Below, in pieces: positions 2,699 through 54,217 of a stretch of DNA of 64,000 nucleotides (positions are counted from its first letter, which is position 1; the number at the start of each line of letters is the position of its first letter). The stretch is from NCBI GenBank assembly GCA_027577595.1, contig JANBRJ010000059.1, forward strand, positions 1 to 64,000. The letters are read 5' to 3'. Source of the DNA: Coemansia sp. RSA 487. Taxonomy: Eukaryota; Kickxellomycota; Kickxellomycetes; Kickxellales; Kickxellaceae. The notes under the pieces are model-generated. The model did no database searches. It was not told the DNA's origin and was given only the letters and a program-made list of their open reading frames with translations. The translations under genes were made by a program, and so were the position numbers.

Positions 2699-2960
2699 TG
2701 TGAGAGATTTGCCATGGACCCAGAATAAAATAGCACAGAGTAATTTATAGATATTTTCTTATTGCTCTAATCTCGATAAAAGAAAAATTATGGATAAAAA
2801 TCCATGTCTCTTCTCAAAGGCAATAACCACGGAAAATGCTGCCCTTATATGTAACAGAGAGTTGTTACGTATAGTGCACTATTGCAGTGTTGACATTTAG
2901 TGACTGTGCAAACCCGTGAAAATGGATCAACCTTGCATACGACAACACGCTAACGCGACA
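2699..2960 (-). mobile_element. Solo LTR, family 1 (copy A)
   Basis: About 262 bases closely related to the copies at 4.1, 5.8, 6.6, 29.0 and 37.0 kb. Read on the minus strand it starts TGTCGCG and ends with TCACA-like termini, the TG...CA pattern of long terminal repeats. An internal palindromic block reads GTAACAGAGAGTTGTTACG. No internal retrotransposon coding region is attached, so it is a fossil solo LTR. Confidence 0.65.
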
Positions 2961-3025
2961 ATGCCGGTTTATCATAGGTGAAAAACGATCAATTAAAACA
3001 CCTCCGTTTTGAACATTTTTGAAAC

Positions 3026-3250
3026 CTACGAAATTGAGCTAACTGTTATCCTTACTTTATTTGCCTTTATTCGGGCTGTATTAAAAGAGTAGCCTTCTGC
3101 TTGAAGTTCTTCAACAATGATATTCACTGCTTTATCCTTTGCTGCCTGTGCAGCTGAATCAAAATCTAGAGTTGATTTGAACGTAAACGATTTACGTGCA
3201 TTTGTACCAGGATGTTTGAACGCCACCCTAAATTTTACTGTATTGCCCAT
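3026..3250 (-). CDS. Small lysine-rich protein, family K paralogue 1 (unknown function)
   Basis: A 74-residue basic protein that I do not recognise. It aligns over its whole length with the 77-residue product at 5128-5361. Both start M-x-x-T, have a basic beta-like stretch, then D-x-DSA-x-x-x-AK around residues 30-40, then a Y-x-x-x-T-x-x-I segment near residue 55-60. The C-terminal part also resembles the YEKK-MPNAT-x-x-QV region of the 143-residue protein at 44537-44968. A TATAAAAG box lies at 3323-3316, about 66 bases before the ATG, the same spacing as in paralogue 1's relative at 5128. It sits in an AT-rich island between solo LTRs. No signal peptide or membrane segment is present. Confidence 0.5.
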   Translation of the reverse strand: MGNTVKFRVAFKHPGTNARKSFTFKSTLDFDSAAQAAKDKAVNIIVEELQAEGYSFNTARIKANKVRITVSSIS

Positions 3251-44968: not shown

Positions 44969-45907
44969 ATTGGCCCAGGCATGTTTGATAAAAAAGAAAT
45001 TACGAAAAGAATAATTTGAAAAAGAAAACGAAATTTTATGTTCAGTATTGTTGGCTTTCTTTTTATATGCCAGTCACAGTATTAGTTAGCTTTTGCCTTT
45101 TGGTTCTTTCTCTTTGTCATTACAAATATAGCTATCCTTTTTATAGTATTGGAAATAGAGCTAGACGTTGGATGTGTATTTACACTACTATTTCTATTCG
45201 CAAGCATTCGTTTAAAGGTATTTATTTATAGAGCTGTTTGATTATATTAGATTTCATACGAGGCAATATAAACGGGATATATACCGTGTGTATCCCTATG
45301 CGCAGACACAAACAAAGAGCGTTACTCCTGCTGAAGTGCATACTGCCTACCTTTTAATCAGTCATGCAAACCAACACGTTTTTTCAGGCAGTGCGCACAA
45401 AGCACTTAAAAAGCCAAGACTGAAACTCTAAATCTTAATTACCAAAGCGGCGTTCGTGTAACGAAAGAAAAGGGAAAAGTGATCACTTTATTGTTTTTCT
45501 GGTGCAGTAACATCTCATTTTGTCACATGATGCCATTTGCTGGCTTTCTTTCGAATACCGCAATGCTGGGAGTAAAAACACAGTAGAATAGCAGTAACAA
45601 CGGACTCTGAAAGATGGGCACGCGTGCTTACAAAACACAAACGAAAGTGGCCTTTATGTCTATTACGAACTCCACATGAAAAAGGAGCTCCAATAAGAAG
45701 CACATGGGCGTGTTGCTTTTTTCTGGAAGAGAAAACTATTGTGTTGATAGTCAATCTTTTTTTTTTGCCTTGCCTTCACACGAAAAGGAAGACATCAAAA
45801 ACTGGATTTCTCCTCTTTCATTTTCTTTTGTTTACACTTTTGCAATCCTTTTTTTTATCTTCCAATTATTATTTTCATTCGGCGTCACCAACTTTATTTC
45901 ATTAATA
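44969..45907. other. Intergenic
   Basis: 939 bases between divergent genes. It contains the TATA box at 45059-45067 for the leftward gene. Frames at 45016-45231 and 45515-45754 have no coding character. Confidence 0.5.
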
Positions 45908-48900
45908 ATGCTTGAGGAGCGTACACTGGTGTCGTCCACGATACCAGCACCAACAATAGTTTCAAATGGTAGGCACTTTTTTTCTTTCCAAAGACACTTT
46001 TTGTTTTCTCAATGCATTATTAGCTCACTACTAATTATTTGTTTAGATTTAGAGAGCGGTAACGACAGCGCCAGCTCATTAACCATATCCGAGTATGAGC
46101 ACGACAGTTCGTTGAGCGAGATGGACGAGGAGGACGAGGTATTCTTTGGCCCCATGAGCAGAGCGGAGCTGAAGCGGCTTCACGAAGGCAGAGATATCCA
46201 CCGGCGCAGTACCGAGATGCTTACACTGACTCCTCTATGCGAAGACGATGATGATAGCGAGCGTAGCGGGAACTCTAATCCTCCAGAGGTAAAGGTTTTA
46301 AAATGCTCTCTACTCTATTCTTCCCTCTTTTACCACATGGCTCATTTAGCATCATTTTTACACACGCTCTCTTCTCTTTCTCTCTCTCCACATACATGCC
46401 ATGCATACGAGCGCGTGTTTACAAAACACCCTTCTGCACTATGTTTTCTGTGCGGGGAGGGGGAGAAGAGAGGGGGACAATTAATTTATCATGATTGTTT
46501 TACCTTGTTCTCGCTCACACGCACACAGTCTTTATGTATTAAAGCAACGCTCCCCCAGACTGTGAATTTTTAAAGCATGTAGCCACATACAGAGCACCAG
46601 CACCAGCACCAGAGCCAGGACCAGGACCAGAACCAGAACCAAAGCCAGGACCAGGCTCCAAAACCCGAAGTACCCCAGACTTTACAAGTGCCCACGCAAT
46701 GCGCAACACCCGAGCTCTCACCTATGGGCGGCATAGCGCAGCAGGCCAAGCACGACGAAACAGCAGCAGCGGTAGTGATCCAGAGCTATTTCCGACGTGC
46801 CCTTGCCAAGGACACATGCAAACGCAGACGCAACGATTTGCGGTTTCTTGCTATGAAGGGTTCCCTCAGCGTCGAGAGGCGCAGAAGACCAACCACGGCT
46901 TCTTCGCAAAGGGGGCCAGTCAATGAGGCGAACCAGCTGCCGAGAATGCCCAGGGCCCCCCCTCCCATGCTTCCGATTGCTCCTAAGGCTCGTTCGGCGC
47001 TCCACCCCAAAGTGCCATTGCCAGCCCTGCCCATCACAAAGGACTCTGGCGCATCTGGCTGGCAGGAAGTGGTTCCCGCGCCCTTGCTCTCTGCATCGAT
47101 AATGCGCGAAAAGAAGCAGCCGCAGTCCGCCGGAATAGTAGCGTCGTCGCCTCTCCGACGCGGGCTGAGTATCCGCAACTGGTTCCACCGCCAGCCCACG
47201 CAGCAGGAAACAATCAGCCAGGCAACAGGGATTCCGCTTCCCTCACGGCCATCCACCGCAACCACACTTCCAGCAAAGGTAACTACCACATCCAATAAGC
47301 CCCAAGGGAACACCAGTAAGGCTCGAGCATACCTGGCTCGCATGGTCTCCCATTGGCGCTACCACCAGCAGACTAAACAGACTACTACTACTACTGTACA
47401 CAAGCCTGAACCACGAATAATCCACCAGAGATTTCGCAGTCGTCGGCAGTACAGCCGCATTATGAACTCATCTGTCCACCATCTGCCACACACCACTACT
47501 AATGCATACTCTGAACTATGCGCCTCCCACATTTTACTTGTTCCTCTTGATGACTCCAATTGCCAACCACAGAGCAAACAGCAGACAGCTGATTTGATGC
47601 GTGTGGACTCTGACAACACCAGCGATTCATCGACATTGCCATCCGCGCCCAGTAGATTCCACAGAGATGGAGGACAGCCAGGCAGCAGCGCAGTGGGCAC
47701 AAAGCTCAATATGTTTAAAAGCAGTCTCGGGTCGCTTTTGACACGGTCGTCGTCAACTCTACGGTTCAATGAGCCGCCCAGCAATACGCGCAAGCCTGTC
47801 GGAGGAGAGCCGTTGGTTTCGCCAGGCGTTTTCGGAGATGTAGCCGCTCCTATGCACACAGCGCCGATCAAGCAGCGAGCCATGATGGAGGAGGTCATGT
47901 TTGTTGACATGTTGGCCGAATCCACAAGCACTGCTGCAGCCACAGCCAACCAGCAGCCCCCCTCTTCCAATCCAACACATATCCCTAAACCACCGCACCA
48001 CCACGTCTCTTCCTCTAACACCCCGTACAGCCGCTCGATGATCCCACGGGTACCACGGTTGGCTTCGGCGCCAAGCGTGGGTAGATCCGCTACCGCCGGA
48101 GCATCTTCGAATAAACGAGCCGTACCGCCAAGAGTTGGATCGGGCAAGCGAGATTCTTCATCCACGGACACTGATGAGGATCTGGGCATAGCCGCCGCGG
48201 TATCCAAGCTGACCAACGGAAGCGTTTCATCTATTGCAGTCGACGGCGAAGAAGAAGCAGATGCACATTCGTTTGTAGTGATGCCTACGAGCGCAATGGC
48301 TGTGCCAACCGAGCTTACAGCAGCATCACAGTCCACTGACGAAATCTTGCCTTCTCCTCCGCTGGCAGCCGCCCGTGACCACTATTCGGTCGCTACCAGC
48401 AGCGACGTATCGATGATTGAGGTGCCATCAGGCGCAGAAGACCAACCTTGCAGCGGCGAAGAAAGCGACCCTGAATTGGTGCATGTGGCGGATACGTCCA
48501 ATGCAAAGGACCTGGATAACGCCTTTGGCGTGCCGACGACAAAGGAGCCGGATTCATCGATGCTGGGTATCGGTTCAATGACCAACATATCGCCACGACT
48601 GTCGCTGCGCTTATCGTCCGATGCCTCGACCTTTAGCTTTGGTCTTTCGGCCCTGGCTTCGCTTATCAATAGCGAGGAAAACGGCGGAATCAAGTCTGAA
48701 GAAGATAGCGCGGCATGCCCATCAGACGACCATATCTCAGAGAGCGATAAAGCCGGCAATGCCCCCGAGGAGAGCAGTGAGAATCAACCGTTAGAAGAAA
48801 GGAAAGATGACATCCAGTCACCTGAAGAGACCAAGGACACCAATGACACCAATGACATCAAGGATAGCGAACAGCCCGAGGAGCCTGACCAGAGCCATAA

Positions 48901-50170
48901 TAGCCCGCCCCCCGCCCCAGCTGAGGAACATTCCGAGAGCAAAACCACTGACGCACCTGTGGAAGAGGACATGGACAACCCAATACACGCTCGTCTACGG
49001 TCGCTCCGTTCCCGTCGTCTGCAAGACAAACCACACGCCGCCCCTATTACGCCGAACAACACAATGGAGTACTCGTCTGGTAAGAGCAAGAAGGCCACGG
49101 ACTCTAAAACGAAACCGTTATCCAAGATGGGACCGCTTCAGCTGGACCGGCTGACCAAGCTCAACACGAGGCGCAACTCGACGTACATGACTTGCAAAAT
49201 CGAGTTCTTTGTGGTCCAAAAGGACGGCGATCGGCCGCCGTCGCCTTCGCTGCTTATGCAAGAAAAGGCACTGTTAAGACGCGCTCTAAAGAACCCCGGC
49301 GGGGATTCGCAAGAGGAGGAAGCGGGCGACTCGGAATACCATTCGATTTACTCGAATCCAAGTGGCGACGACGAGGAGGAGGATGAAAACGATGTCGAGT
49401 CCCTGGTGGATGACACGTATCCGCTGTCGCCCTATGCATCTTCAGACGAGTTCGAGCCCGTCAAAGAGCTTAGCAGTGCCAACGAACCAGAGGTTATGGG
49501 CTCTACTTCTGACGTCAAACGCAAATCCATTGAACTCGAGGCGGAACCCACGACACGGCGGGGCACGGCTTCAAGGATCCAGAAACAGGAACCGTGCTCG
49601 AACAAGAAGCAGTGCCGGCGACCTCGCGTTCACTGGGGCTCCCGGTCCGTTCTCCAGAACACGTGGCTTCTAGGAAATAGACGCAAGACGCTTGCTCGGG
49701 AGGGCGACAATGGGCGGGAGTCGGGCTCAGAGAACTGTAATGTTCCTGGAAAGTCAATACTTGTCCGCAGTGCCGAACCGCCTGTCGCCAGCACCGAAGA
49801 GGCGAAACCCAAAGAAGCTGGTGGCAGTGGGTTTTTGGCATCGCGTGCAGCCAAGCGCTCGTCCAAAGCAGCGCCCCCTGATCTGAATCTTATCCGTGTT
49901 TCGTGTATAGAGTACCCTGATAGCTTGCAAGATATCGAGGACCTTTATTCTGACGATGGCGAAAAGTCCATCGAGAGCGATAGCAGCGATGAGTACATGG
50001 AGCCTCGACCCAAAAAGAACGGGAAAAAGAACAAAAATAATAGTATCAAAAAGACCAAGGAACGCGCACCACCAACCATGGCTACTAAACAAGAGGACCT
50101 AGATAGCGATGTGTTTATTCCACGGCGATCAGCGAGAAACACCACGGGAGCGTTAAATATTTCCAAATGA
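45908..50170 (+). CDS. Large IQ-motif protein, three exons (unknown function)
   Basis: Proposed splice: 45908-45968, 46047-46288, 46595-50170, giving 1292 residues. Donors are G|GTAGGC and GAG|GTAAAG; acceptors are TTTAG and a CAGAG near 46594. An alternative acceptor two bases earlier breaks the phase. Exon 2 encodes an acidic segment with EVFFGPMSRAELKRL, which looks like a short conserved module. Exon 3 starts with a (CACCAG)n repeat coding a Gln/His/Asp-rich run, then AAVVIQSYFRRALAKDTCKR, a calmodulin-binding IQ motif (about 160-180). Long disordered Ser/acidic stretches follow. One ordered patch, LNTRRNSTYMTCKIEFF (about 960), is well structured. The tail has basic clusters and IPRRSARNTTGALNISK. 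The protein is probably cytosolic or nuclear. I cannot name the family. Confidence 0.65.
46595..46660 (+). repeat. CACCAG hexanucleotide-like coding repeat
   Basis: Degenerate CACCAG/GACCAG/AACCAG units at the start of exon 3 of the IQ-motif gene. Confidence 0.7.
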
Positions 50171-50437
50171 TAAACAGAGATTCAGTTTAGCTTCAAAATT
50201 TTAGAAACAAATGATTTAGAGGTGTTTCCTACAGTGGTCAAGATATGTTTTTTCCCTTTTAGTGCAGGGAGTGAGCCAATGTTTGTTCTGTCCAGCCTTT
50301 AAATGTCTGTTCATTCTCTCTAGTTCCATTTATTTTATAAAACAATAAAAGACAACAACGCATACTTGTTGTTTCTACAAGCGCATCATATTTTGGTGTC
50401 ATGCCAATGTATTGAAGGCAAAAATAGCATTGGCTCA
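50171..50437. other. Convergent 3' region
   Basis: 267 bases between convergent genes; it contains several AATAAA-like signals (near 50342). No gene recognised. Confidence 0.4.
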
Positions 50438-50716
50438 CCACTGTATTTCTTGTAGCTCCTTGGCATCTTCTTGTGTTTCGTCTATACGTGTGCGGGCGTC
50501 GATGACCTCGTCCGTTGTTGCGCGTATTTTTCTTACAGAGTCAACGAGTCGAGCGATTGCTTCCAGCGAAGCGTCGTTCAGATCTTTGGTGGTTTCTAGG
50601 TGCTCTTTGGCCAGCGGCGCATTTGTCGATGGGCCACTGGATAAAGGTTCTTTGGGCTTTCCAGCGACGTGGCCCGATTGCTGGTCCTGTAAAAGCTGGC
50701 GAAGTGTCAACGTCAT
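50438..50716 (-). CDS. Small coiled-coil protein (unknown function)
   Basis: A 92-93-residue protein. The first 35 residues are flexible (PKEPLSSGPSTNAPLAK). Residues about 38-93 form a continuous amphipathic helix with heptad spacing (LEAIARLVDSVRKI, DARTRIDETQEDAKELQ). The size and a single helix suggest a subunit of a small helical bundle complex (BLOC-1, DASH or Mis12 type), but I cannot assign one. The frame extends to 50824, but the start MTLTLRQLLQ at 50716 avoids a hydrophobic extension. Confidence 0.6.
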
Positions 50717-50924: not shown

Positions 50925-52034
50925 TTAGACCTTGATATGGATGTACTTGAAAGTGCTCCTAGGCACAGTACGAGTGCTGTACTTATGGGCATTGACATAG
51001 TTGTACTCTTCAATAGTAACAGTGGTGCTGGAGACCTTTGTGACCCATGCAACGTGTCCCTTGCTACCGGCGTCCGTTTGCGCAATGCATCCAGGCACTG
51101 GCTTTTTGTTAATGGGTACCTTGGTTTCACGCGCAGCACCGTCCCAGGTGTTGGCATTGCCCCAGTTGGGTCCCTTGTAATGGTTGGCGAACTTGACTCC
51201 CAACCTGCTGTTGATACGCCAGGCCACAAAGCTCGTGCACTCGCACTTGTAGTACAGCCACGGGTCCACTTCGCCACACTCGTCGGGGTATGGGTAATCG
51301 TCCTTGACTGGCCCGGGGATTTTGCTGCCACTGCCACCATCATTGTTATCGTCGCCATTGCTCGACGAGCTTTCTTCGGCGGCGGGGCTGCTGGTGCTAT
51401 CGGCTTCAGCATCGGTGGTGTTGTCAGTGTCAGTCGGAGTGTTAGCATCAGTATCAGTAGGGGTGTTGTTGCCAGTGTCAGTTGGGGTGTTAACATAAGT
51501 ATCAGTCGGAGTGTTAACATCAGTGTCGGTGGGTGCAACTTGGCTGTCATCAGCGGTAGTGGTATAACGGACTCTGCACTTGCTATTGCTGGGGCTGGCT
51601 GTATCGCTGCTGCCATCGCTGCTGCTTGGCCCATCGCCACTGTTATCGCTAGAGCCGCTGTTATCGCCAGAGCCGCTGTCAGCATTGCTGCTGCTACCAC
51701 CGTCATTGCTCGGTTCGGCATCGTCGGTGCTGGCTGGCTCGGCGGTCGTGTCGTCGCACTTCTTCGCCACATAGCCATTGGAGCCGGTGTGGATGTAGTA
51801 GTCGGAAACGTAGCACCCATCGACAGTCTTGTCCCAGATCGTGTTGCCTTGAACCGTTTCACCCGACGTCTGGCAAACCAGCGAGACATCATCCGTCGGC
51901 TTGTACGAATGAACTACTTGGCTGTTCGTGTTTGGTCCGGTGCGGCAGTTGAGGGAATCGGCATGCTGGATGTTGTATCCCTCGGTAAAGGATACAAGCC
52001 CAACGCAAAGGGCAAGAGAAATGGTGAGCTTCAT
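50925..52034 (-). CDS. Secreted SH3b-CHAP protein (bacterial-type peptidoglycan hydrolase architecture)
   Basis: A 369-residue protein. A signal peptide (about 1-19) is followed by an SH3b-like domain (about 20-92; SLNCRTGPNTNSQVVHSY and a paired-cysteine arrangement). A long Ser/Thr/Asp linker (about 95-235) holds tandem NTPTDTD repeats. A CHAP domain (about 245-369) has the nucleophile cysteine in CECTSFVAWRINSRLG (about 263), histidine in KGHVAWVTKV (about 326), and the third polar residue in EEYNY. CHAP domains cleave peptidoglycan peptide or glycan-peptide bonds, and SH3b domains bind bacterial walls. Fungi have no peptidoglycan, so the target is probably bacteria outside the cell. Six or more cysteines are present, fitting secretion. 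A TATAAAA at 52197-52191 lies about 160 bases upstream. No introns. Confidence 0.85.
   Translation of the reverse strand: MKLTISLALCVGLVSFTEGYNIQHADSLNCRTGPNTNSQVVHSYKPTDDVSLVCQTSGETVQGNTIWDKTVDGCYVSDYYIHTGSNGYVAKKCDDTTAEPASTDDAEPSNDGGSSSNADSGSGDNSGSSDNSGDGPSSSDGSSDTASPSNSKCRVRYTTTADDSQVAPTDTDVNTPTDTYVNTPTDTGNNTPTDTDANTPTDTDNTTDAEADSTSSPAAEESSSSNGDDNNDGGSGSKIPGPVKDDYPYPDECGEVDPWLYYKCECTSFVAWRINSRLGVKFANHYKGPNWGNANTWDGAARETKVPINKKPVPGCIAQTDAGSKGHVAWVTKVSSTTVTIEEYNYVNAHKYSTRTVPRSTFKYIHIKV
51416..51540 (-). repeat. NTPTDTD coding repeat
   Basis: About five 21-24-base units on the minus strand encode NTPTDT[DGY]x repeats in the linker of the SH3b-CHAP gene. Serine/threonine repeats of this type are normally O-glycosylated, which extends the two domains from each other. 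Confidence 0.75.
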
Positions 52035-53388: not shown

Positions 53389-53748
53389 ATGATGAGCGCA
53401 AAACCTGTTATCGTCCAAGCGTTTGTGCTTTTCCTTTTCACAGCATTTTGTGATGCTCTTCCAGCTATGCACGATAATGCGGGCCAGCTAAGCAGCGAGC
53501 CACAGCAATTTCCAGGCTGTGAAAACGCTTTTGCGTTGGTAGCACGGATGCACGACTTTAGCCAGCTCCAAATGTACTACAACGCCTACAATGCACTAGT
53601 ATGGCTGACGGCTGGCTGCATCATCGGTGCCCTCCTTACATACTCGCTTTTCCAGGAGCGGATAGAGCGCGAGCTCACCAGCAACGCCCCGACAGAGAAG
53701 ACCAGCAGTGGGCTACTCCCTATTTCCGAAAAAACATCTGCACACTAA
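53389..53748 (+). CDS. Small type I membrane protein (unknown function)
   Basis: A 119-residue protein. A signal peptide (about 1-23, ending CDA) is followed by a 44-residue outside part with two cysteines (one in FPGCENAF), a transmembrane segment (about 69-88, containing GCIIGALLTYSLF) and a short cytosolic tail with acid and Ser/Thr residues. I do not recognise it. It resembles in layout the 104-residue protein at 58554. Convergent with the PPxY protein at 53855; 106 bases between stops. Confidence 0.65.
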   Translation: MMSAKPVIVQAFVLFLFTAFCDALPAMHDNAGQLSSEPQQFPGCENAFALVARMHDFSQLQMYYNAYNALVWLTAGCIIGALLTYSLFQERIERELTSNAPTEKTSSGLLPISEKTSAH

Positions 53749-53854
53749 AGACTGTTTGATGCTCTTCATTTTATATTATTAAGCGAAGCATAACATTGTT
53801 TTTATAAATACAGCTCAGCAATGACACTAGGGGTTGTTGTTGTTGTTATTCTGG

Positions 53855-54217
53855 TCACCGAGGAGGAGAGGGAAGGGAATGCGTGGCATTATTGATGTAA
53901 GGAGGCGGGTCATTTACGCTTCCCGGTAGATCCACCCGAGGCCGATACGGTGGAAGGTCCTCTGGCTTGTCCAGCTCTTCATCGTGCATCGACCTTACTG
54001 GCATAGCCACGTATATTCGGGGCGGAAACATTGGTTGATTTCCTAAACTATTTGTAGCATTAAGCCGTTCTACGATATTGCTTTCAAGCTGTGCACTGGC
54101 CAGCTGCTGGCGTTGTTGTCTTCTTTTTCTTCTGTGCCATTGTCGGAACCACGCAAGTATTATTAACACCACGACGGCTACTATTCCATACGCTACATAC
54201 GAAGCAGACGAATCCAT
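53855..54217 (-). CDS. Mini membrane protein with two PPxY motifs
   Basis: A 120-residue protein. A short outside N-terminus is followed by a transmembrane segment (about 8-26), a very basic run (HRRKRRQQRQQ), and a proline-rich cytosolic part with LPPYRP (about 89) and PPPYIN (about 105). These PPxY motifs can bind WW domains of Nedd4/Rsp5 ligases. The layout equals that of the 279-residue product at 12633, but the sequences are otherwise unrelated. A role as a ubiquitin-ligase adaptor is inference. Confidence 0.65.
   Translation of the reverse strand: MDSSASYVAYGIVAVVVLIILAWFRQWHRRKRRQQRQQLASAQLESNIVERLNATNSLGNQPMFPPRIYVAMPVRSMHDEELDKPEDLPPYRPRVDLPGSVNDPPPYINNATHSLPSPPR

Follow-up and report, generated by a model that had tools for sequence, protein, structure and literature searches.

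A predicted secreted SH3-CHAP peptidoglycan hydrolase, probably of bacterial ancestry, in the fungus Coemansia sp. RSA 487

The gene and its domains

The window analysed here is a stretch of 64,000 nucleotides from Coemansia sp. RSA 487 (assembly GCA_027577595.1, contig JANBRJ010000059.1). It holds a gene for a 369-residue protein with a putative signal peptide, an SH3-like domain, a disordered linker and a CHAP domain (Table 1). Judged from its sequence, the product is most likely a secreted peptidoglycan amidase or endopeptidase, aimed at bacterial walls by the SH3 module. The open reading frame (ORF), as read from the window, has no intron, and a search with the protein found a database protein that is 100% identical, hypothetical protein EV178_004474 of Coemansia sp. 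RSA 1646, a fungus of the Kickxellomycotina. A chance ORF is excluded by this identical protein and by the 684 matches at E<=1e-3 in the same search. Two long overlapping ORFs in other frames were rejected as compositional shadows, as homology selects the 369-residue frame. A preliminary description of this DNA had placed the frame exactly, leaving its strand (minus) unstated.

Table 1. Positions of the gene, its parts and the other loci discussed (window coordinates unless a contig or genome is named)
Feature	Position	Strand	Basis
Single-exon coding sequence, 369 aa	50925..52034	minus	ORF and identical database protein
Signal peptide, aa 1-19 (cleavage site inferred)	51978..52034	minus	hydropathy, low model confidence aa 1-16, solved-chain starts
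SH3-like domain, aa 20-94	51753..51977	minus	solved-domain matches, alignment, predicted fold
Disordered S/T/D/N-rich linker, aa 95-240, with lone C153 and sequons N189 and N205	51315..51752	minus	model, composition, hydropathy
24-bp tandem repeat encoding 8-aa NTPTDTD-type units	51424..51527	minus	repeat analysis
CHAP catalytic domain region, aa 241-369	50928..51314	minus	Pfam match aa 259-345, fold, alignment
Predicted nucleophile Cys266 codon	51237..51239	minus	alignments
Active-site His327 codon	51054..51056	minus	alignments
Glu343 codon, aligned with Glu of the S-E-x-N motif in solved CHAP domains	51006..51008	minus	alignments
Asn345 codon, invariant across the alignments made	51000..51002	minus	alignments
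L001 (CHAP) and L008 (CWBD-GH24)	contig C10, about 123274-126020	divergent	genome search
L005	contig C93, 11984-12253, ORF 1411-2133	minus	CHAP search
L009	contig C74, near 2947-3150, ORF 1159-1764	minus	binding-domain match
L013	uncultured Erysipelotrichaceae metagenome-assembled genome RUG11122, 82-3555		CHAP search

Residues 1-19 look like a signal peptide. The N-terminal stretch is hydrophobic (peak 11-residue mean 2.43), and cleavage is consistent with the solved fungal SH3 chains, which start at the equivalent of Tyr20 (residue 1 of 8b2g aligns with model residue 20). The SH3-like domain scores weakly against Pfam SH3_3 (14.3 bits, under the cut-off of 27), but its match to solved fungal muramidase domains is strong (E 6e-23 to 2e-17), and all four cysteines of the fungal binding module are found at matching places, with C30-C74 and C54-C93 as the predicted bonds. 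The secretion signal, as a prediction, and the SH3b module of the preliminary description are thus both upheld.

Profile search places the second domain in the CHAP family (PF05257), with 58.6 bits against a curated cut-off of 26. When aligned to solved CHAP domains, C266, H327, E343 and N345 are conserved, Cys266 in the phi812 alignments only. The two catalytic residues claimed previously are therefore present, with Glu343 and Asn345 retained too; we take Cys and His plus a polar Glu or Asn to have the active-site roles in CHAP domains. Compared with solved structures, the predicted structure has the papain-like CHAP fold, and the nearest structures of both predicted domains are peptidoglycan-enzyme folds, which bears out the earlier picture of a secreted fungal SH3b-CHAP protein with intact active-site residues. 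Fold match and aligned residues together support a putative Cys-His-polar triad geometry. This AlphaFold2 model, made from 41 sequences, has predicted local distance difference test (pLDDT) values of mostly 88-96 in the blocks of both domains, with dips to 67-80 at some domain ends and to 72 in one block within CHAP. Pfam gives only CHAP and the weak SH3_3 match, and no glycosidase catalytic domain of the GH24/GH184 muramidase kind was found.

The linker, with pLDDT of 29-51, has 53 Ser/Thr and 30 Asp/Glu among its 146 residues, alongside two N-glycosylation sequons and one cysteine, a composition from which it is probably O-glycosylated. The NTPTDTD linker described beforehand does exist, and is encoded by 4.3 copies of the 24-bp repeat with 73% matches. 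Linkers range from 18 to 225 residues in the ten Coemansia proteins measured, and that of the nearest relative has 94 residues and is His-rich (13 His). The linkers of P0003 (Coemansia RSA 2559) and P0004 (RSA 2399) are His-rich (13 and 10 His) instead of carrying NTPTDTD repeats, and the linker type therefore shifts between close relatives. A lone K-C site lies within the linker in eight of nine long-linker proteins measured; in the ninth, P0009, K-C follows the SH3 domain immediately. In two short-linker relatives from fungi the linker measures 18 and 20 residues (20 in Trichoderma), and the remaining non-Coemansia alignment rows carry short linkers. On this comparison, the long linker is a late elaboration inside Coemansia.

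Fungal relatives, cysteine pairs and a probable bacterial ancestry

Among the 120 relatives listed of the 684 matches, every organism-named protein is from a fungus. These fungi belong to Kickxellomycotina (Coemansia, Linderina, Martensiomyces, Dipsacomyces) or Pezizomycotina, and Linderina pennispora is a member of the former. By these matches, the five CHAP loci of the genome and the full-length tree below, the SH3b-CHAP protein is no one-off; it is an old, multi-copy fungal family. An onward search with a bacterial CHAP gave 401 matches, and most of the named ones among the 120 listed are again fungal. When P0149 was the query there were 976 matches at E<=1e-10, the 120 listed including bacterial SH3b-CHAP proteins, mostly of Actinomycetota. 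The signal-SH3b-CHAP order is seen in the printed bacterial sequences P0149, P0207 and P0238 and is reversed in Brevibacillus P0246, and Trichoderma P0044 shares 51% identity with P0149 over both domains.

In a full-length tree (64 rows, 231 columns) the 44 fungal-type rows make up a single branch, separated with support of 100/100 from the 20 bacterial ones, of which 10 are named Actinomycetota, 9 are unnamed and 1 is from Brevibacillus. Kickxellomycotina form a single clade (88/57, not starred) that groups at 97/82 with the two rows from Pezizomycetes; the window protein is paired with its counterpart from Coemansia RSA 2559 (99/97). Ascomycota as one clade beside Kickxellomycotina is not rejected in the approximately unbiased (AU) test (p-AU 0.362), therefore fungus-to-fungus transfer is not shown. 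As the fungal rows form one branch against mostly Actinomycetota-type rows in which the domains follow the same order, the two domains were probably transferred as a unit, and long ago. Bacterial ancestry, proposed in the preliminary description, is thus the likelier reading of the architecture given the searches, the P0044/P0149 identity and this tree, and would involve an old bacteria-to-fungi transfer of the whole two-domain unit. We infer the direction of transfer from the family being more widespread in bacteria and in their plasmids and phages, and not from a rooted tree.

The linker and secretion signal had also been proposed as marks of domestication, an idea that is not supported: the linker is rejected because non-Coemansia fungal rows have short ones, and the three printed bacterial sequences start signal-like with the same domain order. 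Two added cysteine pairs are a better mark. C30 and C74 (SH3) and C253 and C264 (CHAP) are present in 45/45 fungal-type rows (18 Kickxellomycotina, three of them from the genome itself, 19 Ascomycota and 8 unnamed) and in 0/20 bacterial rows, which we chose from the list of the P0149 search. Bacterial rows do have C54 (17/20) and C93 (19/20). This paired gain suggests two extra disulfides, as predicted bonds.

Trees of the CHAP domain alone weigh against such an origin. One with 94 rows, among them the first 7 of 73 contig-search loci and three from plasmids or phages, leaves most relationships unresolved: no branch splits off the outgroup as a whole, 8 changes are required for Kickxellomycotina, and L013, L014 and P0124 are placed amid fungal rows. 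A reduced tree omits nine rows (eight distant bacterial or phage rows and the long-branched paralogue L005) and does not reject a single clade of fungi (p-AU 0.441) or one that also takes in L013 and P0124 (0.378); its last Saccharibacteria row sits inside a mostly Kickxellomycotina set (95/88), probably through long-branch error. The CHAP-only trees are too short, misroot, and are too weak to name a donor. The preliminary description had named an old eukaryotic clade with a non-peptidoglycan role as an outcome that would speak against it; the old fungal clade was found, with no evidence for a non-peptidoglycan role.

Other candidate sources were considered. Actinomycete-titled records account for 0/73 loci in the contig search, the patterns of which were built from fungal rows, so this speaks neither way. 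L013, a surface-type protein of several domains from a rumen bacterium, has at its N-terminus a CHAP that is 53% identical to the window CHAP and 66% to that of the fungus Trichothecium; it stands outside the cysteine count, having the C264 equivalent and lacking C253. As L013-like proteins are rare in Erysipelotrichaceae (2/145 genomes at E<=1e-10, namely the source genome and one with 42% over part), L013 may itself have been acquired, and transfer in either direction is possible. Phage capture was rejected: 538 phage records match, none of the 20 listed exceeds 41.7% identity, and most of these are annotated as tape-measure or tail proteins. There are 38 matching plasmid records, with up to 41.4% identity among the 20 listed.

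Proposed function and its alternatives

We put at roughly 0.8 the probability of the whole explanation, in which the protein is a secreted fungal peptidoglycan hydrolase derived from a two-domain unit of bacterial origin, with disulfides and then the Coemansia linker added later. An early fungal ancestor would have received both domains at once from an actinomycete-like bacterium; the pairs C30-C74 and C253-C264 would then have been gained, suiting the secretory pathway, and the long linker would have arisen afterwards within Coemansia. After export, the SH3-like module would bind bacterial peptidoglycan by its peptide part, the linker, disordered and probably O-glycosylated, would supply reach, and Cys266, activated by His327 with Glu343/Asn345, would cut an amide bond in the stem or cross-bridge peptide. 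The predicted activity class is N-acetylmuramoyl-L-alanine amidase or peptide endopeptidase.

That such an enzyme is nutritional, digesting the walls of dead bacteria for food, has close to an even chance. Nutrition is suggested for fungal muramidases with the same binding domain (Moroz 2023, PMC10394673), and the genome has several family members, including a muramidase that joins this binding domain (CWBD) to GH24, as a digestive set would. Feeding, however, has the same enzymology as killing, and sequence does not separate the two. An antibacterial lysin for competition, as first proposed, is a serious possibility at rather less than even odds: the architecture is lysin-like, the CHAP folds nearest to that of this protein belong to cell-wall amidases and phage enzymes, and antibacterial action is reported for a GH25 muramidase that an archaeon gained from bacteria (Metcalf 2014). 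Its basis is nevertheless the same sequence, which cannot tell it from feeding. It is improbable that the CHAP domain has been re-purposed for a substrate made by the fungus, be it a protein of its own wall, a peptide linked to chitin or a small amide; its fold is common to non-wall amidases, e.g. glutathionylspermidine amidase, but the attached module is that of fungal peptidoglycan enzymes, found also on the genome's own GH24 lysozyme, and the active-site residues match those of bacterial relatives. Recent Coemansia-specific acquisition or bacterial contamination is scarcely credible and was rejected, since, although the nearest neighbours alone do not prove a fungal setting (none of the five ORFs scanned adjoining the gene, at 45704-50713 and 53389-54217, has a Pfam match at E<=1e-3), the 105-kb contig carries typical eukaryotic genes, the genome has five CHAP loci, relatives occur in many fungi, and the Kickxellomycotina group lies inside one fungal branch of the tree.

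Genome setting and known enzymes

Pfam matches at E<=1e-3 were found in 12/20 other window ORFs scanned, and include a TBC protein, an Elp3-type protein, a catalase, two multicopper oxidases and a CorA-type transporter. Across the 17.8-Mb genome, the five CHAP loci came from six candidates scored, and a binding-domain search found seven places (eight candidates), namely the five CHAP genes, L008 and L009. L008 combines the CWBD with a GH24 lysozyme (Pfam Phage_lysozyme, 134 bits); it and L001 are divergently transcribed with ~1.2 kb between them, as computed from coordinates, and are a possible co-regulated wall-digesting pair. Linderina pennispora is among the genomes richest in GH24 lysozymes in the accessible part of a survey of early-diverging fungi (PMC8778642). 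After a signal-like start, L009 carries the SH3-like binding domain and a stalk rich in Ser, and its hydrophobic C-terminal tail resembles a glycosylphosphatidylinositol (GPI)-anchor signal; no catalytic domain was found in it by Pfam, and it may be a surface protein with which the fungus binds bacterial walls. L005 is a fast-evolving CHAP paralogue with Gln in place of Glu343. Two further paralogues, L002 (contig C90) and L004 (contig C93), are truncated by contig ends at the same SH3 codon and are identical over the first 34 residues from the cut before diverging, which suggests an assembly break in a common stretch.

These observations could be joined in a bolder picture that we consider unlikely. 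Fungi would have taken an actinomycete bacteriolytic enzyme as an intact two-domain weapon and adapted it to eukaryotic secretion with two new disulfides; in a Coemansia lineage a long, hypervariable, probably glycosylated stalk with an unpaired cysteine, holding a domain at either end, would make it a disulfide-linked or surface-held lysin, working with the divergent CHAP/GH24 pair and the GPI-anchor-like, enzyme-free binder.

The closest bacterial counterparts are secreted-type SH3b-CHAP proteins, mostly of Actinomycetota (Actinomadura P0207, Actinoallomurus P0208, Pedococcus P0185, and P0149), which have the same signal-SH3b-CHAP order and active-site residues but lack both cysteine pairs and the long linker. 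The CHAP fold is also common to the Staphylococcus aureus N-acetylmuramoyl-L-alanine amidase 5t1q, S. saprophyticus CHAP 2k3a and pneumococcal PcsB, at 26-34% identity to the window CHAP over aligned residues; His, Glu and Asn align in 2k3a and PcsB. All three proteins presumably carry other accessory domains. Fungal muramidases share the SH3-like module of the window protein, including its four cysteines, and in 8b2s it is also N-terminal; targeting to bacterial walls is proposed for them in the accessible part of the article (Moroz 2023, PMC10394673); the window protein differs in having a CHAP (amide bond) catalytic domain and no glycosidase. That part of the article names amidase, C40, M23, GH24, GH73 and GH184 as partners of the module and shows binding only with triglycine, for the T. 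saccata domain, and the main text, figures and supplement apart, never uses the word CHAP.

That fungi have wall enzymes of bacterial origin is a general idea already known. As given in the accessible part of an mBio 2024 survey, fungi hold 20 transferred lysozyme genes, with Actinobacteria as 36% of donors (PMC11708051), and the transferred-lysozyme setting is therefore not new. The terms CHAP domain and peptidoglycan are absent from the text of a 2026 paper on antimicrobial effectors of plant-associated fungi (PMC13127573), and no paper with a fungal CHAP-SH3 protein as its subject was found among the titles and abstract starts listed from the open-licence literature, supplements excluded. 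Databases already label many of these fungal proteins 'CHAP domain-containing', and two listed ones 'N-acetylmuramoyl-L-alanine amidase'. The window protein belongs to the known fungal secreted peptidoglycan enzymes with a shared SH3-like module, and what it contributes is modest. As catalytic domain, CHAP brings amide cleavage to a set of fungal peptidoglycan enzymes built on a common binding module. The history of the paired cysteines is a later change that can be followed residue by residue, in a gene that passed between kingdoms, probably with its architecture entire. Fungal secreted lysins of the SH3-CHAP kind are possible leads for bacterial-wall enzymes.
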